Source: a virus
IMG/VR virus record: IMGVR_UViG_3300025141_000020
Coordinates: 146,569 to 210,568 of that record
Reading direction: 5' to 3' (one strand)
Length of the DNA: 64,000 nt
Shown here: one piece after another, positions 5,016 to 60,937 of the stretch
Numbering within the stretch: position 1 is the stretch's first letter
How the letters are laid out: the number at the start of each line of letters is the position of its first letter
Translations under genes and position numbers: made by a program
Notes under the pieces: model-generated
The model's database searches: none
What the model saw: the letters and a program-made list of their open reading frames with translations, nothing else
What the model was told of the DNA's origin: nothing

Positions 5016-5023
5016 TATAAATA
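5016..5023 (-). promoter_or_regulatory. Repeated upstream box (sense TATTTATA)
   Basis: TATAAATA on the plus strand, 13 bases upstream of the protease ATG. Candidate phage late promoter element. Confidence 0.6.
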
Positions 5024-6312: not shown

Positions 6313-6320
6313 TATAAATA
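6313..6320 (-). promoter_or_regulatory. Repeated upstream box (sense TATTTATA)
   Basis: TATAAATA on the plus strand, 14 bases upstream of the 248-aa gene and immediately after the portal stop codon. Candidate phage late promoter element. Confidence 0.6.
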
Positions 6321-8183: not shown

Positions 8184-8191
8184 TATAAATA
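8184..8191 (-). promoter_or_regulatory. Repeated upstream box (sense TATTTATA)
   Basis: TATAAATA on the plus strand, 24 bases upstream of the portal ATG, in the gap after the terminase stop. Candidate phage late promoter element. Confidence 0.6.
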
Positions 8192-9929: not shown

Positions 9930-9937
9930 TATAAATA
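9930..9937 (-). promoter_or_regulatory. Repeated upstream box (sense TATTTATA)
   Basis: TATAAATA on the plus strand, 4 bases from the terminase ATG. If this is a -10-like element, the transcript would be leaderless; it could instead be a translation element. Confidence 0.55.
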
Positions 9938-14770: not shown

Positions 14771-14778
14771 TATAAATA
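14771..14778 (-). promoter_or_regulatory. Repeated upstream box (sense TATTTATA)
   Basis: TATAAATA on the plus strand, 18 bases upstream of the 119-aa gene ATG. Candidate phage late promoter element. Confidence 0.6.
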
Positions 14779-16309: not shown

Positions 16310-18181
16310 TTACTTAACTTCTTCAAATTCCACATCTGTAGAATCCTGGGGGTCATTCTCCGTAGTATCGTCATTAGATTCTTCGGTTTGCTGGTATAAC
16401 TTTGTACTAATTTCTTGCCATACACTATTTAATTTTTCTGACAAGTCTTCAATGCCTTCCATGTCTTCTGCCTCAATAACTTCTTTAAGTTCTTTAATGG
16501 TATTTTCTAATCTAGATTTATCTGTTTCCTCTAACTTATCCCCAAAATCTTCCATTTGTTTTTCTGTTTGAAATATTAGTGCGTCAACCTCATTTAATTT
16601 ATTAATTTTTTCTAGTTTTTCGTTGTCGGTTTTAGCGTTTGCTTCAGCCTCTTTTTTCATTCTTTCAACTTCTTCATCTGATAAACTACTTCCAGACTCA
16701 ATTTTAATATTTTGAGACTTACCAGTTCCTTTATCGACCGCTTTAACATCAATAATACCGTTTGCGTCAATATCAAAAGTAACCTCAATCTGTGGTATCC
16801 CTCTGTGTGCTGGTGGTATGTCGGTTAGTTGAAATCTACCTAATGTTCTATTGTCTCCAGCCATTGGTCTTTCCCCTTGTAGTACGTGAATATCTACTGC
16901 TGGTTGATTATCTACCGCTGTAGAAAATACTTGACTTTTGGATGTTGGTATTGTTGTGTTAGCGTCTATTAGTTTAGTCATTACAGCTCCCATAGTTTCA
17001 ATACCTAAGGAAAGTGGTGTTACGTCCAATAATAGCACATCATTTACATCACCAGCTAATACCCCTCCTTGAATTGCTGCTCCCATAGCTACCACTTCAT
17101 CAGGATTTACTCCTTTTGATGGGTCTTTTCCAAATAATTTTTTAACGGCCTCTTGTACCGCTGGAATCCTAGTAGAACCACCAACCAATAAAATCTCATC
17201 TATGTCACTAATCTTTAATCCAGAATCTTTTAAAGCTTTTCTACATGGTGTTAAACTTCTCTTAACTAAATTACTAACCATTGACTCAAATTTTGCTCTG
17301 GATAACGTGCGTACTAAATGTTTAGGTCCTGTACTATCTGCGGTAATATACGGTAAATTAATTTCTGTTGTTGTAGAGTTTGATAATTCTACTTTTGCTT
17401 TTTCAGCTGACTCTCTTAACCTTTGTAGTGCTGATGGGTCTTTAGTTAGGTCCATACCGTTCTCAGTTTTAAACTCGTCAACTAACCAGTCTATAATTTT
17501 TTCGTCAAAATTATCTCCACCTAGGTGAGTATCACCATTAGTAGATTTTACTTCAAATACTCCATCTCCAAGTTCTAAGATTGAAACGTCAAATGTACCA
17601 CCTCCAAGGTCATAAACGGCAACAGTCATATCTTTATCTTTCTTATCCATTCCATAAGCAAGGGCTGCAGCAGTAGGTTCATTAATAATCCTAAGAACTT
17701 TTAATCCAGCTATTTCTCCCGCTTCTTTTGTTGCATTTCTTTGTTCGTCATTAAAATAAGCCGGTACAGTTATAACCGCTTCTGTTACTTTTTCACCCAA
17801 ATAATCTTCAGCTGTCTTTTTTAAATTTTGTAATACCACAGCGGAAATTTCTTGTGGTACATAAGTTTTATCACCAACCTTTATAGTTACAACATCTTTT
17901 TTTCCTTTAAGTACTGAGTAAGGCATTTTTTTTAACTCCTTACTTATTTCACTAAACTTACTACCTATAAATCTTTTTACTGAATATATAGTATTTGTAG
18001 GGTTTGTTACAGATTGTCTTTTAGCTGGGTCACCTACACTTCTATCCCCGTCTTTAAACGATACTATAGAAGGTGTTGTTCTTCTTCCTTCTGAGTTTAC
18101 GATTATTTCTGGGTTTCCACCCTCTATTACTGAAACACACGAATTCGTTGTTCCTAAATCAATTCCAATTACTTTTGCCAT
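16310..18181 (-). CDS. dnaK: Molecular chaperone DnaK (Hsp70)
   Basis: 623 aa, complete Hsp70. The nucleotide-binding domain starts [20 protein letters not shown] and includes [14 protein letters not shown] and [14 protein letters not shown]. The conserved linker [14 protein letters not shown] is at about residues 379-392, followed by a substrate-binding domain with a helical lid and the C-terminal end EFEEVK typical of bacterial DnaK. It refolds or holds client proteins with DnaJ and GrpE; neither partner is in the window, so host cochaperones are probably used. All key motifs are intact, so it is likely active. Cellular DnaK of Bacteroidota is the obvious source. It is divergent from the ClpC-like gene on the plus strand. 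Confidence 0.97.
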
Positions 18182-18270
18182 TTTTAATTTTATTTTTAAA
18201 TTATTGTCTCTTTAAGTATAAGACATTTATTGTTATTTGTCACCCCCATATAAAAAAAATTTATATTGTT

Positions 18271-18300
18271 TTGTTGGTTAACATATTTTTATTACTTTTG
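18271..18300 (+). promoter_or_regulatory. Bacteroidota-type promoter of the ClpC-like gene
   Basis: TTG at 18271-18273, 19-base spacer, then TACTTTTG at 18293-18300, matching TTG-N17-23-TAnnTTTG used by the primary sigma factor of Bacteroidota. Transcription would start near 18305 and leave a leader of about 120 bases before the ATG at 18425. Confidence 0.75.
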
Positions 18301-18424
18301 TAGTACAAATAGTATACCGTTGGTGTACTTTTAAGTAAAGTGTGTCATAATGTCAATAGTTGGTGACAGTTTGTCAGTTATTGATATTTGTAACTTTTTA
18401 TATTAACTTTAAATAAAAAAATAT

Positions 18425-20467
18425 ATGATAGAATTTAGAGATTCAGATGCAGACGTAGAGGATTTAGGTGGTCCTGGGCAACCGGGTAAAGAATTGCCTA
18501 ATAGTAGTACCCCTATTTTAGATAATTTTTCTAGGGATTTAACTTCCTTAGCTATTGAAGGTAAGTTGGACCCAGTGATAGGAAGAACGGAGGAGGTTAA
18601 ACGTTTAGTTCAGATTCTTTCGAGAAGAAAGAAGAACAACCCTGTTCTTATTGGAGAACCTGGTGTTGGTAAGACTTCTGTTGTAGAGATGTTAGCTACC
18701 ATAATTAATTCTGGTAAGTGTCCACGTACTTTATTGGGTAAACGCATTATTTTATTAGAATTATCATCTTTAGTGGCTGGAACTAAATATAGGGGTCAGT
18801 TTGAGGAGAGAATGAAAGCTATAATAGATGAGTTACGAGATAATAAAGATGTTATTATTTTTATAGATGAGATACACACAGTTATTGGTACTGGTAATTC
18901 ATCTGGTAATTTAGATGCTGCAAATATCTTTAAACCTCCTTTGGCGAGGGGTGAAGTTCAATGTATTGGTGCTACCACATTAGATGAATATAGAGAAAAA
19001 ATAGAAAAAGACGGAGCTTTAGAAAGAAGGTTTCAAAAAGTTATTATAGAACCACCTTCGGTTATAGACACAATAGAAATATTAAACAACATAAAATATG
19101 TTTATGAAAATCATCATAATGTTAGTTATTCAGAAGAGGTAGTAAATTTATGTGTTAGATTAGCGGAAAGATATATTACAGATAGAGCTTTTCCAGATAA
19201 AGCTATTGATATACTGGATGAGGTTGGAGCTACTGTCCAAATAGAGGTTAAAACCCCCAAATCTATAACAAAACTTAAATCGGAAATAGAAAGTGTAAAA
19301 CAAGAAAAGATTAATGTTGTTAAATCACAGATGTATGAGAAAGCTGCTGACCTAAGGGATGTAGAAAAGAAATTAAAAGATAAGTTATGTAGTGTAACCA
19401 ATAAATGGGAAGAAAAACAATCTGACAATAAGATTGCCATAACTATTTATGATGTTATGTCTGTAGTATCTAGAATAACTAGAATACCTTTAAATAGGAT
19501 GGACCATGGTGAAATAAAGAATTTATTAAATTTAGATAAACAATTAAAGAAGTCTGTAATTGGTCAAGATAAAGCAATTGAAACTATAGTTAAGTCTATA
19601 AGACGAAATTCTGTCGGTATAAAAGAGTTAAATAAGCCTGTTGGTTCTTTTATTTGTCTAGGTCCTACTGGGGTTGGAAAGACCCATATTGCTAAAAAAT
19701 TAGCTGAATTAATGTTTGGTTCTGAAGAATCTTTAATCCGTGTTGATATGTCCGAATTTCAAGAAAAACATTCACTTTCTAGACTTATAGGTTCTCCTCC
19801 TGGTTATGTTGGTTATAGTGAAGGTGGCCAATTTACAGAAAAAGTAAGACAGAAGCCTTATTCCTTAATATTATTTGACGAGATAGAGAAGGGGCATAAA
19901 GATATATTTAATGTTCTATTACAGATATTAGATGATGGTTATGTTACCGACGCTTCAGGGAGGAAAATTAATTTTAGAAATACTCTAATTATGATGACAT
20001 CTAATATAGGAGTTAGACAATCTCAGGACTTCGGCACTGGTTTAGGGTTTGCAACTAAAGCAACTCAGCAGACAGATAAAGAACGTGTTAGAACAATTAT
20101 TTCTAAATCATTAAAGGATACTTTTAATCCAGAATTTTTAAATCGTTTAGATGATGTTATATTTTTTGAGTCCTTAGAGGGTGATAGTATTAAAAAAATA
20201 GTAAGATTAGAATTATCACACTTATTAGATAGGTTAAGGGAAAAGAAATATAATATTAAATTTGGCCCTAGTGTGGTAGACCATATTAGTAAGATTGGTT
20301 ATGACCCCAAATTTGGGGCTAGACCATTAAAAAGAGCTATACAATCTGAGGTTGAAGATTACATCTCTGAAGAAATTTTAAGGGGCACTATAGTTGAGGA
20401 TATGTCCTATTCTATTGGTTATAACAAATCTACTGAGAAGTTTAAACTGACAGAAAAAGGTAGATAG
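18425..20467 (+). CDS. ClpC-like AAA+ unfoldase lacking the N-domain
   Basis: 680 aa with two AAA+ modules. D1: Walker A GEPGVGKT (77-84), Walker B FIDEIH (Asp148/Glu149), pore loop KYRG. D2: Walker A GPTGVGKT (413-420), pore loop GYVGY (460-464), FDEIEK. Between them MYEKAADLRDVEKKL (303-317) is a UVR-type motif as in ClpC. A LGF tripeptide at 540-542, in the D2 loop where Clp unfoldases dock on ClpP, argues for a protease partner rather than a ClpB-type disaggregase. The usual N-terminal repeat domain (about 140 residues) is absent; only a short acidic leader precedes D1. No ClpP is in the window, so host ClpP is the likely partner. Confidence 0.93.
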   Translation: MIEFRDSDADVEDLGGPGQPGKELPNSSTPILDNFSRDLTSLAIEGKLDPVIGRTEEVKRLVQILSRRKKNNPVLIGEPGVGKTSVVEMLATIINSGKCPRTLLGKRIILLELSSLVAGTKYRGQFEERMKAIIDELRDNKDVIIFIDEIHTVIGTGNSSGNLDAANIFKPPLARGEVQCIGATTLDEYREKIEKDGALERRFQKVIIEPPSVIDTIEILNNIKYVYENHHNVSYSEEVVNLCVRLAERYITDRAFPDKAIDILDEVGATVQIEVKTPKSITKLKSEIESVKQEKINVVKSQMYEKAADLRDVEKKLKDKLCSVTNKWEEKQSDNKIAITIYDVMSVVSRITRIPLNRMDHGEIKNLLNLDKQLKKSVIGQDKAIETIVKSIRRNSVGIKELNKPVGSFICLGPTGVGKTHIAKKLAELMFGSEESLIRVDMSEFQEKHSLSRLIGSPPGYVGYSEGGQFTEKVRQKPYSLILFDEIEKGHKDIFNVLLQILDDGYVTDASGRKINFRNTLIMMTSNIGVRQSQDFGTGLGFATKATQQTDKERVRTIISKSLKDTFNPEFLNRLDDVIFFESLEGDSIKKIVRLELSHLLDRLREKKYNIKFGPSVVDHISKIGYDPKFGARPLKRAIQSEVEDYISEEILRGTIVEDMSYSIGYNKSTEKFKLTEKGR

Positions 20468-20484
20468 GGTGATATTTATTGCCA

Positions 20485-21585
20485 ATGAAACTAATAATAA
20501 CACAAAGACAATCTAACCTACTAATAAAGGAGGCTATGGGGGTACCCAAACCTATCGAATTCTGGGTTGACTCTTTATCTTCTTTAATTAGAGATGGTTT
20601 ATTAATGATGGTGTCTTCTGATAATACTTCTGAATACTTTGATGGTGAAGATGTTCAAGAAAAGGTAACTTCTTTGGGTTGGAATACTTCTAGTGAAGAC
20701 TTTATAAAATTTCCTCTTGCCGAACCAAAACTAAAATTAGACTTAGTTATTGTGCCAGATGAAGACATTAAAATTGGTGATGATTATATAAATAATGCGT
20801 CCTTTGATACTGCCGATATGGATATCAGGGATGCTACCTTTGACGATGGAACCACAAGACCTTTATTGGTTGGTGGTACCATAACCATAGAAATATCAAT
20901 CCCACAATCTTCTTACGATAGTGCGACATTTGTTGAGTTATTTGATACTGAAATTAAACCTTATGTGGAATCGGTCTTATTTCACGAACTAACCCACGTA
21001 TATGAATTCTACAATAGGTTATTAACCTCGTCTTTGGACCCTAGTTTTGAGAATATTAGTAGTGCTTCTTCTATGGTTAATAAAATGGGTTTAGTAGATG
21101 ATTGGGACGAATTGATGTTTTTAATTTATCTGCACCTATCTTTTGAGTTGAATGCTAGGGTGTCTGAGGTTTATGGTTTAATTAGAAATAAGAATATTCG
21201 GTCTAAGAAAGAGTTCTTAGATTTTTTAAAGACTTCTAGGGCTTTTTCTTACGCTAAAAGGTTAAGAAACTTCAACTCAGAAACTTACTATAATGATTTT
21301 GAGGTTCCTCAAGATAACATAGATAGGGTTAGGCAGTATGATGGTAAAGAAACCCCAATAGAAGAAATAAAAGAAATAGTTATGCAACAACTGGTTGATA
21401 ATTGGGTTGTGTCGTATAAGCAACTATTAGATGATTTTTCCGATGATGAGACTTTGTCGGTTCCAACCCTACCTTCTAAAGCAACTTCTTCACCTAAAAA
21501 CTTTTTAAAATTTTGGCAAAAAAGATTTAATAGAGCTGGTGAAGACTCAATAAGAAAAATTTCAAAACTATATTCGTTACTTTAA
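20485..21585 (+). CDS. Putative zinc metalloprotease-like protein (HELTH)
   Basis: 366 aa. The motif SVLFHELTHVYEFYNR contains HExxH (His167, Glu168, His171), the zinc-binding and catalytic core of many metalloproteases; a third ligand is not certain but several acidic residues follow within 60 positions. The N-terminus MKLIITQRQSNLLIKEAM resembles the leaders of other proteins here. The ATG at 20485 is preferred over an in-frame TTG at 20479. It starts 17 bases after the ClpC-like gene and probably shares its transcript. Family unknown; role in proteolysis or virion entry is inference. Confidence 0.78.
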   Translation: MKLIITQRQSNLLIKEAMGVPKPIEFWVDSLSSLIRDGLLMMVSSDNTSEYFDGEDVQEKVTSLGWNTSSEDFIKFPLAEPKLKLDLVIVPDEDIKIGDDYINNASFDTADMDIRDATFDDGTTRPLLVGGTITIEISIPQSSYDSATFVELFDTEIKPYVESVLFHELTHVYEFYNRLLTSSLDPSFENISSASSMVNKMGLVDDWDELMFLIYLHLSFELNARVSEVYGLIRNKNIRSKKEFLDFLKTSRAFSYAKRLRNFNSETYYNDFEVPQDNIDRVRQYDGKETPIEEIKEIVMQQLVDNWVVSYKQLLDDFSDDETLSVPTLPSKATSSPKNFLKFWQKRFNRAGEDSIRKISKLYSLL

Positions 21586-21596
21586 TATTTTTTTTA

Positions 21597-21604
21597 TATC
21601 TTTG
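21597..21604 (+). promoter_or_regulatory. Bacteroidota-type -7 box
   Basis: TATCTTTG followed by TATTATAC, 25 bases upstream of the ATG at 21630. No clear TTG at the -33 position, so the promoter is incomplete. Confidence 0.55.
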
Positions 21605-21629
21605 TATTATACAATAAAAAAAATTAAAT

Positions 21630-22232
21630 ATGGAAGGATACATTTATTTAGGAGAACATTATGATGTTCTTAATCGAGAAATAGGTATTTCTGATAAAAA
21701 AATAGGCTTGTCTATAGACCCTATTAGTAGAGAAAACTCTTTAACTAAAACTAAATCCCCTATTAGATATAGAATTGTTGCTGTTTATAAAGTAGATAAT
21801 ATGCGAAGAGTTGAAAAAATGTTACATAGTATCTTAGACAGTAGGAGGGTTTTTGGTGAGTGGTTTAAAGATGATGACGATACTTTAGAAGGCGACTTTA
21901 TTAACTTTATGAACGCATACGGGGCGGAAGTTTATAATATACAAGAAATTAAAGAAGAAAATATTTTATTAAAAGAAGATACCAGATTATTAGAAGTTGT
22001 TAAAAAACATGGAGCTCCCCTTAATTTAGTTAGAAAATATCTAGGAATAGAATATGATGTTTTACTAGATAAGAATGGTCTTCTACATTTTAATGGTGAT
22101 GTTTTTGATACCCCAAATAAACTTTACAACAATGGTATTGTCTTTCACGTTAAAAAGAAACGAGGTGGAAGTGGTACTAACAACTTATCTCAATTTAAAA
22201 TCAAAGAAACTGGCGAAAGATTAGTAGATTAA
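21630..22232 (+). CDS. T5orf172 / GIY-YIG-like protein
   Basis: 200 aa. The N-terminal 95 residues fit the T5orf172 (MUG113) branch of the GIY-YIG nuclease superfamily: GYIYLGEHYD, then KIGLSIDPISRENSL, then a conserved VEKMLHSILDSRRVFGEWF with the typical H and GEWF ending. Proteins of this type are common in phages and may bind or cut nucleic acids. The C-terminal half (residues 100-200) has a Lys/Glu-rich helix and a basic FHVKKKRGGSG segment, possibly DNA-binding. Its own TATCTTTG box lies just upstream. Confidence 0.8.
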   Translation: MEGYIYLGEHYDVLNREIGISDKKIGLSIDPISRENSLTKTKSPIRYRIVAVYKVDNMRRVEKMLHSILDSRRVFGEWFKDDDDTLEGDFINFMNAYGAEVYNIQEIKEENILLKEDTRLLEVVKKHGAPLNLVRKYLGIEYDVLLDKNGLLHFNGDVFDTPNKLYNNGIVFHVKKKRGGSGTNNLSQFKIKETGERLVD

Positions 22233-22233
22233 C

Positions 22234-22264
22234 TTGGTGGTGTCATTTATTTTTCTTATCTTTG
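22234..22264 (+). promoter_or_regulatory. Bacteroidota-type promoter giving a near-leaderless mRNA
   Basis: TTG at 22234-22236, 20-base spacer, TATCTTTG at 22257-22264. The ATG of the SprT-like gene is at 22269, only 4 bases after the box, so the transcript would start at or inside the start codon region. Confidence 0.75.
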
Positions 22265-22268
22265 TAGT

Positions 22269-22769
22269 ATGAATTTAGAAAAAACACGAAATATGGCACT
22301 TAAACTAATGAGACAACACGGTCTTATTAGTTATACTTTTAAATGGGATAGAGCGGTAAGAAGATTTGGTTCCCATAATGGAGGAAGCTGCACTATTTCT
22401 CTTTCTAGACCTTTAACTTTACACGAAACTAACGAGTGTAGAGTTAAAAATACTATTTTACATGAAATCGCACACGCTTTAGACCACCAACAACGTGGTT
22501 ATTCTAATCACGATGCTAACTGGAAAAGAATTGCAAGGTCTATTGGGTGTAATGGTGAAAGATGTAGTAGTAGTTCAGGTGTAGATAAATCTAAAATATT
22601 AAAATGGGTGGCTACTTGTCCTAGTTGTGAAAGAAAAGTTTACTACGCAAGACAAAAAGCAAAAGATGTAGCTTGTGGTAAATGTTGTAAAAAACATAAT
22701 AATAACAAGTATACCCCTGAGTATAAATTTAATTGGAAATTAAATAGAAATGTCGTAAAATATATATAA
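22269..22769 (+). CDS. SprT-like zinc metalloprotease domain protein
   Basis: 166 aa. NTILHEIAHALDHQQRGYSN carries HExxH (His65, Glu66, His69) followed by HDANWKRIARSIG, the typical SprT/Wss1-type arrangement, and a C-terminal zinc ribbon formed by CPSC (117-120) and CGKCC (136-140). SprT-like proteins include Spartan/Wss1 proteases that remove DNA-protein crosslinks; bacterial and phage members are poorly characterised. The last base of its stop codon is the first base of the next ATG (TAATG), indicating translational coupling. Confidence 0.87.
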   Translation: MNLEKTRNMALKLMRQHGLISYTFKWDRAVRRFGSHNGGSCTISLSRPLTLHETNECRVKNTILHEIAHALDHQQRGYSNHDANWKRIARSIGCNGERCSSSSGVDKSKILKWVATCPSCERKVYYARQKAKDVACGKCCKKHNNNKYTPEYKFNWKLNRNVVKYI

Positions 22770-23299
22770 TGGAAAAATTACAATATAAAATAAAAAACGG
22801 ACCAAGAGTAGAGTCTCTCAATCAATTTGAGTTGTCTGATGGTACCATAGTAGCAATCTTTCAAGGTTTTAGGGGTGAAAACCCTGACTTAGACTTTATT
22901 GTGAAATATAAAGAACCTGGGAAAAGATTAAGAACTCCGTCACATACTCATTGGATTGTTGATTTAATAGTTAAGGGTGAAATTAATAGACCTAGTACAT
23001 TAGATTTAGTTAAAGAACTAATAGAAGTTTATGATGCTATTGACCCATTTCAGACTGTAGAAGAAAGGGATAATTATGAATTGGTATACGCTAGTGAGAT
23101 AGCTAGAGATTTTTCATGGTTAGATGGAACCGGTTCTTTATCATTAGAATTAATAGGTACTTTAGTAGAATTATTCTCTAAATGTGAAAAACAAACAACC
23201 GGTGCATTTATGTTTAAAAGTATGTTAACCTTATCAAAAGATTATCTGGAAGGCAAAAAAGATTATTATCAAATAATAGGAACCTCAAAAAGAGTTTAA
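22769..23299 (+). CDS. Unknown protein coupled to the SprT-like gene
   Basis: 176 aa, soluble. N-terminal beta-rich part (KLQYKIKNGPRVESL, DGTIVAIFQGFRGENPDLDF, TPSHTHWIVDLIVKGE) followed by helical segments. No known motif; the HTHW with nearby acidic residues is not a recognised metal site. It overlaps the SprT-like gene by one base and is followed after one base by the M20-like peptidase, so the three are expressed together. It could be a partner of either peptidase. Confidence 0.75.
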   Translation: MEKLQYKIKNGPRVESLNQFELSDGTIVAIFQGFRGENPDLDFIVKYKEPGKRLRTPSHTHWIVDLIVKGEINRPSTLDLVKELIEVYDAIDPFQTVEERDNYELVYASEIARDFSWLDGTGSLSLELIGTLVELFSKCEKQTTGAFMFKSMLTLSKDYLEGKKDYYQIIGTSKRV

Positions 23300-23300
23300 T

Positions 23301-24110
23301 ATGATTAAAGAAAAATTAAAAGAATTATTGGCTATCCCAACTAAGACCTGGGAAGAGGACCGACTTATATCTTATTTAATAGAACATTTTGAGGCTCGTG
23401 GGTATCATTACGAATTAGATGAGATGGGTAACTTATATGTAACTAAAGGCATTTCCGAATACTATCCTTTAGTTTTAGCTCATACTGATAGTGTGCACGA
23501 TATTAAAGAAATGGTAGTAAAAGAAGAATACCTACCTAATTCACAGGGGGATAAAAAACTAGCCCTCAAAGCTTATACTAAAGACGGTAATCTCCCTACT
23601 GGTATAGGAGGTGACGATAAAGCAGGCGTATTTATTTGTTTACAACTTTTAGAACGGTTTAATGTTATTAAAGGGTTTTTCCCAGTCGCAGAAGAAACCG
23701 GATGTCATGGTAGTAGAGGAGCAAAAGAATCATTCTTTAATAATGTAGGTTATGCTATCCAGTTTGATTCTACCGAAAATGATACTATGTCACTCTCACT
23801 TATGGGTACGCAGTTATTTGAACAGGATTCTGAATTTTTTAATAAAGCTAAGAGTTTAATATTAGAACACGGTTTTACTGAGTGGAAACATCATCCGTAC
23901 ACCGACACAATGGTGTTAAAAGAAAGATTTAATTTTGCTTGTTTAAATTTTGCTGCGGGATATTACAACTATCACTCAGATAACGAATATGTAATTGTTG
24001 AAGATGTGTTGAACTCTATACTTTTAGGTGAGAGTGTGATAAAAAAATTAGGTAATAACTTTTACGAATTTAGGGTATCTAAAAAAGATTCTTTTGATTG
24101 GTTTGATTAG
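23301..24110 (+). CDS. M20-like metallopeptidase, short form
   Basis: 269 aa. The M20/peptidase T-like active site is visible: LAHTDSVHD (His61, Asp63), GIGGDDKAG (bridging Asp105/106), AEETG (Glu131 catalytic, Glu132 metal), an FDST near residue 156, and the final His in YYNYHSDNEYV (His225). Members act as zinc aminopeptidases or dipeptidases. It is shorter than usual (370-410 aa) and appears to lack the inserted dimerisation domain, so it may act as a monomer. Position after the ClpC-like and other peptidase genes fits a role in finishing peptide degradation (inference). It ends with a 4-base overlap with the convergent gene. Confidence 0.85.
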   Translation: MIKEKLKELLAIPTKTWEEDRLISYLIEHFEARGYHYELDEMGNLYVTKGISEYYPLVLAHTDSVHDIKEMVVKEEYLPNSQGDKKLALKAYTKDGNLPTGIGGDDKAGVFICLQLLERFNVIKGFFPVAEETGCHGSRGAKESFFNNVGYAIQFDSTENDTMSLSLMGTQLFEQDSEFFNKAKSLILEHGFTEWKHHPYTDTMVLKERFNFACLNFAAGYYNYHSDNEYVIVEDVLNSILLGESVIKKLGNNFYEFRVSKKDSFDWFD

Positions 24111-24724
24111 TAGTCTTCGTGAGGTGTAACATCAAAAAATGTTTTTGAACTTTTATAATTATCTAACTTTAACCCATGTTTTTCTTCTGATTTAACAACA
24201 TTATTTATCCATTCTGAGACAGGTTTATAGATAAACGTACCGGAATCACCAAATATTTGTTCGAAATCCTCATATTCAACCGTACCCTTTTCTGGGTTAC
24301 TTTTGAAGTCTATTTCTGGGTATAATCCTAGTTTTTCCACATCTTGTATCATATCCGCGATTGTAGACGATAACCAATGACTAACATAATTAAATCCTTT
24401 AGCTTCTCTTAATCTTTTTACTAGGGTTTCCCTCCACTCTTTATCTAAATAATTCAATAAATAAAAATCTTTAGTTTCTTTTCGTTTTTCTGGAGTTAGA
24501 ACTAAGGTTTGTTCTTCCATTGGTAATTTTCTACTTATGTCCTCTAGCCTATTAAGTGCTTCTGGATTCCAGCTAGAATCTTTATTAACAAAATGTAACA
24601 TTATAGCAGTTTTTTTATCCACATCCAATATTTCACTTATATTAGTTATTTCTATAAGAACCTCATCATCCGAATTTTCTACTATTCTACCTACCTTATC
24701 TAATATTCTACTTAATTTACCCAT
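24107..24724 (-). CDS. Unknown soluble protein
   Basis: 205 aa. Starts MGKLSRILDKVGRIVENSD, contains a charged helical middle (EKRKETKDFYLLNYLDKEW) and ends DNYKSSKTFFDVTPHEDY. No family, membrane or signal sequence recognised. The single-gene unit has its own upstream box at 24736-24743, so it probably belongs to the late minus-strand programme although surrounded by plus-strand cargo genes. Confidence 0.75.
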   Translation of the reverse strand: MGKLSRILDKVGRIVENSDDEVLIEITNISEILDVDKKTAIMLHFVNKDSSWNPEALNRLEDISRKLPMEEQTLVLTPEKRKETKDFYLLNYLDKEWRETLVKRLREAKGFNYVSHWLSSTIADMIQDVEKLGLYPEIDFKSNPEKGTVEYEDFEQIFGDSGTFIYKPVSEWINNVVKSEEKHGLKLDNYKSSKTFFDVTPHEDY

Positions 24725-24735
24725 ACTTATTTTAT

Positions 24736-24743
24736 TATAAATA
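24736..24743 (-). promoter_or_regulatory. Repeated upstream box (sense TATTTATA)
   Basis: TATAAATA on the plus strand, 11 bases upstream of the 205-aa gene. It lies next to the divergent host-type promoter at 24746-24775. Confidence 0.6.
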
Positions 24744-24745
24744 TT

Positions 24746-24775
24746 TTGTTTTATATAATAATTTACCTATATTTG
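24746..24775 (+). promoter_or_regulatory. Bacteroidota-type promoter of the ORF-tmRNA unit
   Basis: TTG at 24746-24748, 19-base spacer, TATATTTG at 24768-24775. It is the only promoter seen before the small ORF and the tmRNA, so both are probably made as one precursor. Confidence 0.75.
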
Positions 24776-24796
24776 TACTATATATAAATAAATATT

Positions 24797-24985
24797 ATGC
24801 CTAAATCAAGAAATAGAAAAAATCACAGTAAAAAAGTTTTAGCGAGAAACTTAAGGTTAAAACAACAACAAAATTCCATGAATAAACAAATGGAGTTGAT
24901 GAAAGAAGAATATATAAAAAAAATGGCTGAAAAAGCTAAAGAAAAAGAAACCGATGCTGGGGAAGTACCTTTGACATTGGGTTAG
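24797..24985 (+). CDS. Small basic helical protein upstream of tmRNA
   Basis: 62 aa. N-terminal half strongly basic (MPKSRNRKNHSKKVLARNLR), middle a Gln/Met/Lys-rich helix, C-terminus acidic. The composition suggests RNA or DNA binding. The stop codon ends 5 bases before the mature 5' end of the tmRNA and the two share a promoter, so processing (for example by RNase P) would be needed to release the tmRNA. No family recognised; a role with the tmRNA is only suggested by position. Confidence 0.7.
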   Translation: MPKSRNRKNHSKKVLARNLRLKQQQNSMNKQMELMKEEYIKKMAEKAKEKETDAGEVPLTLG

Positions 24986-24990
24986 AATAC

Positions 24991-25399
24991 GGGGGTGACT
25001 GGAATTGATTGGCGTCAGTCGATTAATGTCAGCACGTCGAGCCTGAATTAAGCTCGTAAAATCTGATTCATTTTTTTAACTGGCAAAACAATTGCTAAGT
25101 TGGCGACTTTAGGACTTGTCCGTGAGGGGTCAACAGTGGCTATCGCGTAACTAAGTTACGATATAGCTCCGTTTTCGTTAAAGTCTCTTAAGATTTGTAA
25201 CTTTATATATGAAAACGTCATTTAGACAAATCGACCCCACCCTCTACTGTTTGGGTGGTAAAATATAAGATGGTCTAGGTTACTTTGAGGGTTGTTTATT
25301 CTGTAAAAGTAACTGAATAGTTAGAATAAACTAAACGTGTAGGATAGATGTTAGTAGAAGATGAACAAGACGGGGGTTCGATACCCCCCACCTCCACCA
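24991..25399 (+). ncRNA. ssrA: Transfer-messenger RNA (tmRNA)
   Basis: About 409 nt with an encoded CCA end. The acceptor stem pairs GGGGGUG (24991-24997) with CACCUCC before ACCA. The third pair is G-U, the identity signal for alanyl-tRNA synthetase, and the discriminator is A. The T arm GGGGG-TTCGATA-CCCCC lies just before it. The resume region (TTTAACT then GGC) resembles that of Bacteroidota tmRNAs, where tags start with Gly. The stop codon region TAACTAA sits inside a hairpin (TATCG-CGTAAC / GTTACGATA), as in helix 5 of known tmRNAs. It rescues stalled ribosomes and tags the products for proteolysis with SmpB. A Rho-independent terminator follows at 25405. Confidence 0.95.
25082..25150 (+). 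other. tmRNA tag reading frame (22 codons)
   Basis: From the resume codon GGC at 25082 the frame runs 22 codons to TAA at 25148-25150. The tag begins GKTIAKLATLGL and ends STVAIA. Known Bacteroidota tags are about 9-11 residues ending ALAA, so this is roughly twice as long with a divergent but still small and hydrophobic end. The frame is chosen because its stop lies in the expected hairpin and the first codon is Gly. Confidence 0.75.
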
Positions 25400-25404
25400 A
25401 AAAG

Positions 25405-25429
25405 AAAAGGACCTAACGGTCCTTTTTTT
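25405..25429. terminator. Terminator after tmRNA and convergent gene
   Basis: Stem AAAAGGACC / GGTCCTTTT with a TAAC loop (25405-25413 with 25418-25426), followed by more T. It ends the tmRNA transcript; the A run on its left side also lets it work for the minus-strand gene ending at 25428. Confidence 0.88.
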
Positions 25430-33353: not shown

Positions 33354-33830
33354 ATGAAAAAATTAACCACAATATTATTATTACTCCTTTCCATAATTTC
33401 TTATGGACAAAATAATGTAGATATGCAAGCGTTTAATAAAATAAATGAATATCGTATATCCAATGGGGTGTCTGCTATTGTCCTTGACAGTACTATATGG
33501 AAAGGGGTGAATTATCATAGTAACTATCTAATAGATAATGGTTATCCGTATAATTACCCATTAGATAATCCTCATGATGAACTGATTTTAGCTCGTCCTT
33601 CTGACAGATTATTTCAATATAATTTCGTTATGAATGGAGTTATTAGAGAGTGTATTACGGTATTTACCTGTGTTCCGGATATGGAATTAACAACGGATTG
33701 GGTTATTAAGAACTTTGATAAGTCCACTCCTCACAAAGAAGCTGTTTTAGACCCTAGGGTAATTAGGGGTGCAATTTCCTTAACTTTTTCTGGTGATTTA
33801 TGTTATGCTACATTAATTGTAGCAGAATAA
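33354..33830 (+). CDS. Secreted CAP-like protein, divergent copy
   Basis: 158 aa. Signal peptide MKKLTTILLLLLSIISYGQ, cut after SYGQ or nearby. The mature part aligns with the two downstream paralogues: FNKINEYRISNGVSAIVLDS, NYHSNYLIDNGYPYNYP, HDELILARPSDRLF, WVIKNFDKSTPHKEAVLD and RGAISLTFSGDLCYATLIV. This is the CAP/SCP (cysteine-rich secretory, PR-1) pattern with HxxY-type and PHK motifs. Several CAP-typical residues have changed, so it is probably the most divergent copy. It ends 3 bases before the convergent 528-aa gene. Confidence 0.8.
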   Translation: MKKLTTILLLLLSIISYGQNNVDMQAFNKINEYRISNGVSAIVLDSTIWKGVNYHSNYLIDNGYPYNYPLDNPHDELILARPSDRLFQYNFVMNGVIRECITVFTCVPDMELTTDWVIKNFDKSTPHKEAVLDPRVIRGAISLTFSGDLCYATLIVAE

Positions 33831-35513: not shown

Positions 35514-36041
35514 ATGAAAAAATTAATCACAGTATTATTATTATTCCTTTCCATATTTTCTTATGGTCAAACTAAGTTAGATTTACTTATTTTCGAAAAA
35601 GTGAATAACTATCGTACACAAAATGGTTTATCTCCGTGGGCATGGGATAATAGGGTTTTCGTGGTGGCTGAAAAACACAATAATTATCAACTAAGTGTAA
35701 GTGATATTTCACATGACGAATTAGTTGATGTTGTAGGTCATGAAGAAATTAATAGGTTAGCTCATCGTTTTGACGCTATTTTTACTAATTGGTTACGTTG
35801 TGGGGAAAATATTGCTGTTGTAAACACATCTGATATGACATTAGAAAAAATTGCTAATACAACATTAGAAATGTGGATTGATTCCCCACCGCATAATAAA
35901 ATACTTTTGTCTGCAACTAAATATTGTGGTGGAGCTATAAGCTCTCACCACAGTACAACCTGGTCACGTTCTAAATATGCTTCTCACAATAGTTGGGTGT
36001 ACGTTACCTTAAATTTGTATGGTGGTTCTATATATAACTAA
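35514..36041 (+). CDS. Secreted CAP-domain protein
   Basis: 175 aa. Signal peptide MKKLITVLLLFLSIFSYGQ. The mature CAP domain shows FEKVNNYRTQNGLSPWAWDN, AEKHNNYQLSVSDISHDE, GHEEINRLAHRFD, CGENIAVVNTSD and TTLEMWIDSPPHNKIL, the order of conserved elements in bacterial CAP proteins (H...E...GENIA...W..SPPH). Such proteins bind lipids or metals or act as secreted effectors; the bacterial ones are mostly uncharacterised. It has its own host-type promoter, so it is likely expressed early or throughout infection and acts in the periplasm or outside the cell. Confidence 0.88.
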   Translation: MKKLITVLLLFLSIFSYGQTKLDLLIFEKVNNYRTQNGLSPWAWDNRVFVVAEKHNNYQLSVSDISHDELVDVVGHEEINRLAHRFDAIFTNWLRCGENIAVVNTSDMTLEKIANTTLEMWIDSPPHNKILLSATKYCGGAISSHHSTTWSRSKYASHNSWVYVTLNLYGGSIYN

Positions 36042-36127: not shown

Positions 36128-36655
36128 ATGAAAAAATTACTCACAGTCTTATTAACTATTTTAACTTTCTGTTCATACGGACAACAACGTATTGTAGAAG
36201 CAGAAAAAATCATTTTTAGAATGGTAAACGAATATAGAGTGTCTCAAGGGTTAGACGCTGTTGTATGGTCTGAAGACGCGTATAATGCAGCGTATCACCA
36301 CTCATCTTATATGTCTAATAAAGGTGTCCCTTATGCACACACTGAAACTGTTGATGTGGATGGTCATGAGGAGATAAGTAACCCTCAGATGAGAATAGCG
36401 AAGTATTGTAGCCCTTCTTCTTGGGGTACGGAATGTATGGCGGGTCTTCCTTTATTATCGTGGACCGTAGAACCTTGGGATTTAGAGAAAGCGTGTCGTA
36501 CAGTAGTAAATAATTGGATTAATTCTCCCGGACACAAAAAAGCTATATTATATGATAAAGAAGGTAACGGTAACCTTAGTATTGGAGCTGTGAGCGTAAT
36601 TAAGTTAAATTATTGTGAGAGTTCAATCCCGGTATTAGTCTTGGTGAACAAATAA
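36128..36655 (+). CDS. Secreted CAP-domain protein
   Basis: 175 aa. Signal peptide MKKLLTVLLTILTFCSYGQ. CAP elements: FRMVNEYRVSQGLDAVVWSE, YNAAYHHSSYMSNKGVPYAH, DGHEEISNPQM, and VNNWINSPGHKKAILYD, the best SPGHK match of the three paralogues. Cys residues in YCSPSSWGTECMAG may form a disulphide. The three CAP genes share signal peptide and order but have diverged, which suggests selection for variation. It ends 11 bases before the convergent 945-aa gene. Confidence 0.88.
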   Translation: MKKLLTVLLTILTFCSYGQQRIVEAEKIIFRMVNEYRVSQGLDAVVWSEDAYNAAYHHSSYMSNKGVPYAHTETVDVDGHEEISNPQMRIAKYCSPSSWGTECMAGLPLLSWTVEPWDLEKACRTVVNNWINSPGHKKAILYDKEGNGNLSIGAVSVIKLNYCESSIPVLVLVNK

Positions 36656-60929: not shown

Positions 60930-60937
60930 TATAAATA
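60930..60937 (-). promoter_or_regulatory. Repeated upstream box (sense TATTTATA)
   Basis: TATAAATA on the plus strand, 15 bases upstream of the 267-aa gene ATG. Candidate phage late promoter element. Confidence 0.6.

Follow-up and report, generated by a model that had tools for sequence, protein, structure and literature searches.

The closest described counterpart of the locus analysed here is the bacterial tmRNA-SmpB/ClpXP system. The phage tmRNA resembles its bacterial counterparts, and in particular the Bacteroidota tmRNA, in being one-piece, in its RF00023 structure and G3-U70 pair, and in its glycine resume codon followed by an in-frame tag. By contrast, the phage tag has 21-22 residues and is not of the GENNYALAA type, the phage encodes no SmpB, and its tmRNA gene is linked to genes for a ClpC unfoldase and an M20-type peptidase. 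A precedent for an orthogonal tag with a dedicated AAA+ protease exists in Mesoplasma florum, in which the ssrA tag is read by mf-Lon and not by ClpXP (Gur and Sauer 2008, reviewed in PMC8138137); this pair is cellular and Lon-based, whereas the phage island has ClpC/ClpP and tag recognition there is putative. Complete phage tmRNAs occur in the mycobacteriophage Bxz1 group, Bacillus phage G, the OM43 phage Melnitz and huge phages (PMC4131195, PMC9004378, PMC7162821). The Melnitz tmRNA is two-piece and accompanied by a glutamine riboswitch, and a role of this tmRNA in host protein recycling was proposed earlier (PMC9004378), while huge phages carry SmpB in places (PMC7162821). A linked ClpC-M20 island was not found in the portions of the three papers that were considered. 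Phage tmRNA, phage ClpP and phage chaperones are already known singly. The author of a preliminary description of the DNA analysed here was not aware of an account of its DnaK, unfoldase, peptidases and tmRNA as one system, and a search of open-access papers on phage-encoded tmRNA or phage ClpP likewise gave no description of a linked tmRNA-ClpC-M20 island with a private tag.

The window, i.e. the whole stretch of 64,000 nucleotides that was analysed, comprises positions 146569-210568 of a 210,568-base virus record (210.6 kb). This record is a phage, as seen from its T4-like head module with terminase, portal, major head protein and prohead protease. Because the terminase is at most 28% identical to those of reference phages, the group is essentially uncultured. 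The closest cellular relatives of the window ClpC are Bacteroidota ClpC proteins (54-59% identity in a genome scan) and, together with the Bacteroidota-type glycine resume codon of the tmRNA, this kinship points to a member of the Bacteroidota as the most likely host. The family with the island would then be uncultured giant phages of Bacteroidota bacteria. Elsewhere in the window, TATTTATA (in the sense of transcription) is located 12-32 bases 5' of about a dozen minus-strand gene starts, mostly of structural genes (e.g. 5016-5023, 6313-6320, 8184-8191, 9930-9937, 14771-14778 and 60930-60937), with 24 matches compared to 14.3 expected on both strands of the window. It may function as a late promoter or as part of a leader and is absent before the ClpC and DnaK genes. 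Three look-alike secreted-type proteins with N-terminal signal-like stretches (MKKL...SYGQ) are encoded at 33354-33830, 35514-36041 and 36128-36655, interleaved with minus-strand genes.

The preliminary description placed DnaK, an AAA+ unfoldase with an LGF motif, HELTH and HEIAH proteins, an M20-like peptidase and a tmRNA with a divergent 22-residue tag at 16310-25399, and all of these parts were confirmed there. It missed a GIY-YIG-like ORF, the ORFs at 22769-23299 and 24107-24724, and a 62-residue ORF. The one-piece tmRNA gene (ssrA; 24991-25399, plus strand) encodes its CCA end, matches RF00023 over positions 1-374 of 374 (123.3 bits, E 1e-47) and was independently called by ARAGORN. It is followed on the same strand by an intrinsic-terminator-like hairpin, identified by eye (25409-25429; GGACCTAACGGTCC and then TTTTTTT). 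The 62-residue basic ORF (24797-24985, plus strand) stops 5 bases 5' of the tmRNA gene and is kept in six neighbourhood loci, all from near relatives; its product is a candidate RNA-binding partner. The G3-U70 acceptor pair is kept in all 40 phage tmRNAs while the remaining acceptor pairs covary; this is the hallmark of alanine charging, which is predicted here. RF00023 scored above cut-off in 39 of 49 records having the phage ClpC. Among the remaining 10, two (G022 and G028) have the tag and an intact 5' half of the gene together with a divergent 3' end that is unscored by Rfam (in L114 at 12602 and in L124 at 14427), and most of the others stop shortly past ClpC. The scoring of G022 and G028 as tmRNA-less was therefore rejected; their genes with the divergent 3' end could be pseudogenes, could be split or could have a 3' end of a new type.

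The tag reading frame (25082-25150, plus strand) encodes GKTIAKLATLGLVREGSTVAIA, i.e. 22 residues at 25082-25147 followed by a stop codon at 25148-25150. ARAGORN reported only the last 18 residues; this shorter tag was rejected based on the UAACU/GGC resume site and 40 related tmRNAs, which have tags of 21-22 residues and support the length of 22 given in the preliminary description. Over all loci, there are 46 distinct phage tags of 21-22 residues with the consensus GNTFAKMAALGL(T/I)REE..V-x-A, i.e. a core of AK(M/L)xxLGL and an xxA end. Across 36 DNA variants, Gly11 and the final Ala are invariant, Leu12 is nearly so, and Lys6 and Met/Leu7 are strongly conserved. The pN/pS ratio is 0.52 in frame and 0.82 and 1.48 in the shifted frames; with synonymous sites near saturation these figures are rough, but the contrast is clear and indicates purifying selection on the tag frame. 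The host tags are different. In a sample of 28 tmRNAs from Bacteroidota genomes, including one Chlorobiota MAG, ARAGORN read 27 tags, all of 9-10 residues with an LAA or MAA end (GENNYALAA, GETNYALAA, GEDSYAMAA, DNTSYRLAA and the like), so that the phage tag is about twice as long. A regular expression for the tag, searched in six frames over 3.7 Mb of loci including host loci, matched only in phage loci and only at the place of the tmRNA, and the main form of the pattern gave no match in 396 Bacteroidota genomes. A tblastn search with the tag in reference phages gave no match either, as expected for such a short query.

The ClpC-type AAA+ unfoldase (18425-20467, plus strand; 680 residues) matches the Pfam domains AAA, AAA_lid_9, UVR, AAA_2 and ClpB_D2-small and aligns with host ClpC. 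Phage ClpC proteins retain two AAA modules, the Walker A motif, the GYVG pore loop and the UVR/M-domain, all in common with Bacteroidota ClpC, and the [LIV]GF loop is present in all aligned phage and host ClpC proteins; in the window protein, the ClpP-docking LGF motif is at residues 540-542 (20042-20050, plus strand). What sets the phage form apart is that the N-terminal Clp_N domain of about 170 residues, the adaptor-binding domain, is missing in the aligned phage proteins while it is present in host ClpC. As a result, the phage proteins resemble a delta-N form, with a median length of 672 residues compared to 849 in the host. ClpC adaptors bind the N-domain. A ClpC without this domain would therefore have to read its substrates directly, and a dedicated tag would be well matched to such a mode. 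The preliminary description had the unfoldase feeding host ClpP, and this was half right: ClpP is encoded in 15 of 32 related records, with intact Ser-His-Asp motifs in the eight sequences read, while none was found in the window's record or in its near relatives, all of which are partial or of uncertain completeness. Where the two genes are close, ClpP is roughly 11-26 kb from the tmRNA; in G012, it is far away. SmpB is encoded in none of the 32 records and, therefore, must come from the host.

The M20-type di-metal peptidase (23301-24110, plus strand; 269 residues) matches PHROG 4191 'peptidase' (1.5e-34). It has no Pfam match itself, and a relative with 45% identity passes PF01546 (27.5 bits compared to a cut-off of 24.6). 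Ligand-type residues are kept at H61, D63, D105, D106, E131, E132, D156 and H225; in 15 sequences, H61, D106, E132, D156 and H225 are invariant together with the catalytic-type residues D63 and E131, with the metal ligands assigned by motif and not by structure. Relatives with solved structures include PepT and Xaa-His dipeptidase. In most distant loci, a protein family of about 350 residues without a Pfam match (F8; e.g. L105:13485-14531, minus strand) is encoded between M20 and the tmRNA.

In about half of the loci, ClpC is directly followed by a gene for an HExxH protein. In the window, this is a 368-residue candidate zincin metallopeptidase (20479-21585, plus strand) with a HELTH motif at residue 169 that is invariant in 8 sequences. 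The protein has no Pfam or PHROG match and its AlphaFold model has low confidence (pLDDT 58). It is present in near relatives only, and an HEIRH protein holds the slot in many distant loci. The second such protein of the window, an SprT-like metalloprotease with the motif HEIAH (22269-22769, plus strand; PF10263, 2.6e-12, 47.0 bits compared to a cut-off of 25.6), is lineage-specific, being present in near relatives and in the more distant L089 and L092. SprT proteins are better known for DNA-protein crosslinks. For these two reasons, SprT was rejected as a member of the tag route.

Divergently from ClpC, the window encodes DnaK (Hsp70; 16310-18181, minus strand; 623 residues; Pfam HSP70, 6e-261). 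Among relatives, the occupant of this slot depends on the lineage, with DnaK in 10 loci, Hsp20 in about 20 and a protein with two UVR motifs in about 10. The middle domain of ClpC itself and McsA, a factor linked to ClpC, also have UVR motifs. Because DnaK, Hsp20 or UVR proteins and HExxH proteins fill these slots, the proteostasis theme is kept even though the genes change, and the chaperone theme of the preliminary description held among relatives. The same record also encodes a complete DnaJ with J, zinc-finger and C-terminal domains (G000:16174-17199, also L172:16174-17199, minus strand); in its linear form, about 146 kb separate this gene from DnaK. The remaining ORFs are of narrow distribution. 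The GIY-YIG-like ORF (MUG113/T5orf172 in Pfam; 21630-22232, plus strand; 200 residues) is present only in the window's phage and in the L087 record and is an insertion. Over 21630-22769, the GIY-YIG-like protein is 94% and SprT 93% identical to the L087 counterparts, compared to 64% for the neighbouring HELTH gene, and the GIY-YIG and SprT block may represent a recent transfer or homing. Two ORFs without assigned function, one of 176 residues (22769-23299, plus strand; no Pfam or PHROG family match) and one of 205 residues (24107-24724, minus strand), are present in near relatives only.

Scattering of these genes among relatives had been set beforehand as the result that would speak against a common system. 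It was looked for, and the core was found linked. ClpC, M20 and the tmRNA are close to each other and in this order in 45 of 45 loci, which were picked through ClpC or HELTH and selected for carrying the tag; the tag is 2.3-9.9 kb past ClpC, and M20 is on the plus strand in the window as well as in the five relatives closest to it, and on the minus strand elsewhere. The genes between and beyond these three turn over. In other words, conservation of the gene set holds for ClpC, M20 and the tmRNA and not for the whole 9 kb, in which HELTH, SprT, GIY-YIG and DnaK are restricted to near relatives or replaced. Because the 45 loci had been picked via ClpC or HELTH, a reverse scan was performed that started from two tag DNA patterns and did not use ClpC. 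It gave 36 contigs, 34 of which have ClpC; of the other two, one is a fragment of only 4.3 kb and the second a 48-kb record having M20. Similarly, in a scan starting from the terminase, the loci that extend past DnaK have ClpC. Of the 20 ClpC loci without the tag, 15 extend less than 3.4 kb downstream; in L092, the tmRNA is just outside of the locus, and the downstream span is 3.5 kb in L109 and L141, 8 kb in L095 and 10 kb in L120. Because all loci belong to one clade, these data indicate strong conservation and not many independent gains. Outside of this clade, relatives of the M20 protein in Bacillus, Brevibacillus and Vibrio phages are not accompanied by a tmRNA over the cut-off, and in huge phages related by ClpC, the tmRNA and ClpC are unlinked or there is no full tmRNA. 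LR756508 and LR756504 have tmRNA, ClpP and ClpC, all unlinked; in LR756508 (L385, tmRNA at 92434), a tag of about 36 residues extends from a GGC resume-like site (GVNNADYESAG...KPAAV), while ARAGORN gives 8.

Based on these data, we suggest a model in which the core of the island is the tmRNA, the N-domain-less ClpC and M20, joined by a variable chaperone and often an HExxH protein, and in which the phage tag is a degron that is added with the help of host SmpB and fed to ClpC/ClpP. We give this model a probability of roughly 0.5. In this model, ribosomes would stall during infection on truncated host or phage mRNAs, and nonstop messages would be plentiful once the lytic phage degrades host mRNA. 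The phage tmRNA would be charged by the host alanyl-tRNA synthetase and delivered by host SmpB, and the ribosome would move to the phage frame and add (Ala)-GKTIAKLATLGLVREGSTVAIA, replacing the GENNYALAA-type tag of the host. This tag would function as a phage-specific degron taken up by phage ClpC, which would dock via its LGF loop on ClpP, encoded by the phage in many relatives and probably by the host in the case of the window phage. Finally, the M20 enzyme would trim the peptides that are released, yielding amino acids for reuse. The sequences supply the parts and the linkage between them, a tag that is conserved and under selection, the alanine identity pair, the loss of the N-domain, the docking motif, ClpP in relatives and the absence of SmpB; from these, we infer that ClpC may recognize the tag, that M20 may act on the products and when this may happen. 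Several observations weigh against the model: tag distances follow ClpC no more closely than they follow structural genes, the 45 loci come from a single clade and were selected by the tag, at least one record with ClpC and M20 seemingly lacks the tmRNA, M20 relatives in other phages and the huge phages do not show the linkage, and ClpP is missing from the window's record. A more specific version, to which we give somewhat less than an even chance, is that of orthogonal trans-translation, in which the private degron would be read only by the N-domain-less phage ClpC, working with ClpP of the phage or of the host, and proteins from stalled ribosomes would be channelled into M20-dependent recycling under phage control. 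Overall, the interpretation in the preliminary description is partly supported, i.e. its core idea survives in a narrowed form.

The main rival to the degron model is that the tag is protective. In this scenario, the tag would be poorly read by host ClpXP, ribosomes would be freed, phage fragments would be spared, and ClpC and M20 would have different substrates, for example proteins of the host or capsid parts damaged by heat. None of the 46 distinct phage tags ends in LAA or MAA, i.e. the LAA-like end of ClpXP-type ssrA degrons is absent, and the endings are VAA, AVA, VGA, VVA, VTA, VEA, VKA, AIA, SVA, ATA and similar; this scenario accounts for the missing LAA equally well. It would also fit a record with ClpC and M20 and no tmRNA, and among the loci without the tag, a true loss is most plausible for the record containing L120 (G025), in which the tmRNA is seemingly missing. 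In a mirror-tree comparison, tag distances correlated with those of ClpC (r 0.56) about as they did with those of structural genes (0.46-0.54; partial correlation 0.15); no ClpC-specific co-variation with the tag was seen, which counts in favour of this scenario, and the comparison is otherwise uninformative. However, a protective tag needs no conserved internal core, and Gly11, Leu12, Lys6 and Met/Leu7 are kept over very diverged phages; moreover, the tmRNA remains linked to the unfoldase and the peptidase. We consider this scenario unlikely, while it is the strongest competitor.

A somewhat less likely scenario is that the phage only boosts the supply of tmRNA while host mRNA is being destroyed, with the tag being of minor importance and the neighbouring genes a by-product of a conserved region. 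The other components of the pathway, SmpB among them, are provided by the host, conservation extends to the structural genes on the left flank, and phage tmRNAs are known for which no Clp island is reported (PMC4131195, PMC9004378). Nevertheless, a minor tag is difficult to reconcile with purifying selection on a frame of twice the host length, and a by-product with a trio that persists while the genes around and between its members turn over.

Slightly lower still, we rank the possibility that the genes have separate jobs, i.e. that DnaK, Hsp20 and ClpC function in virion assembly or stress, M20 and the HExxH proteins in scavenging, and that the tmRNA is present by chance or descent. Chaperones commonly aid virion assembly, and the terminase and head genes are only a few kb from the island. 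By contrast, the tmRNA adjoins ClpC and M20 in all 45 loci, even across the M20 inversion. Also, in the unrelated, cultured crAss-like Cellulophaga phages phi38:1 and Calle_1 (Pervagoviridae), the tmRNA is close to an M20 peptidase, at a distance of about 1.3 kb. These phages differ in having genomes of 73 kb, no ClpP and a long tag ending in AVGV that is only loosely similar to the tag of the island, and Cellulophaga is missing from the organism names tallied for ClpC; they represent a partly independent case of tmRNA-M20 linkage. Finally, phages often integrate at ssrA, and the tmRNA might be a relic of such an event at the host gene, but this reading is already disfavoured and very improbable because the tags are unrelated to those of the host, selection acts on the gene, which is complete, and 40 phage tmRNAs separate completely from 22 host tmRNAs in a tree (support 0.73, hard alignment), which argues for an old phage lineage and no recent loan.

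The neighbourhood of the tmRNA gene, with an unfoldase, a peptidase, often ClpP and a tag that is unlike that of the host, offers a likely answer to the question of why phages carry tmRNA. If phage ClpC reads the tag, then the island would be a virus-encoded tag-and-destroy pathway, through which these phages would control the turnover of proteins and the supply of amino acids in a new way. It would also provide a new orthogonal degron-protease pair that could be used as a tool.
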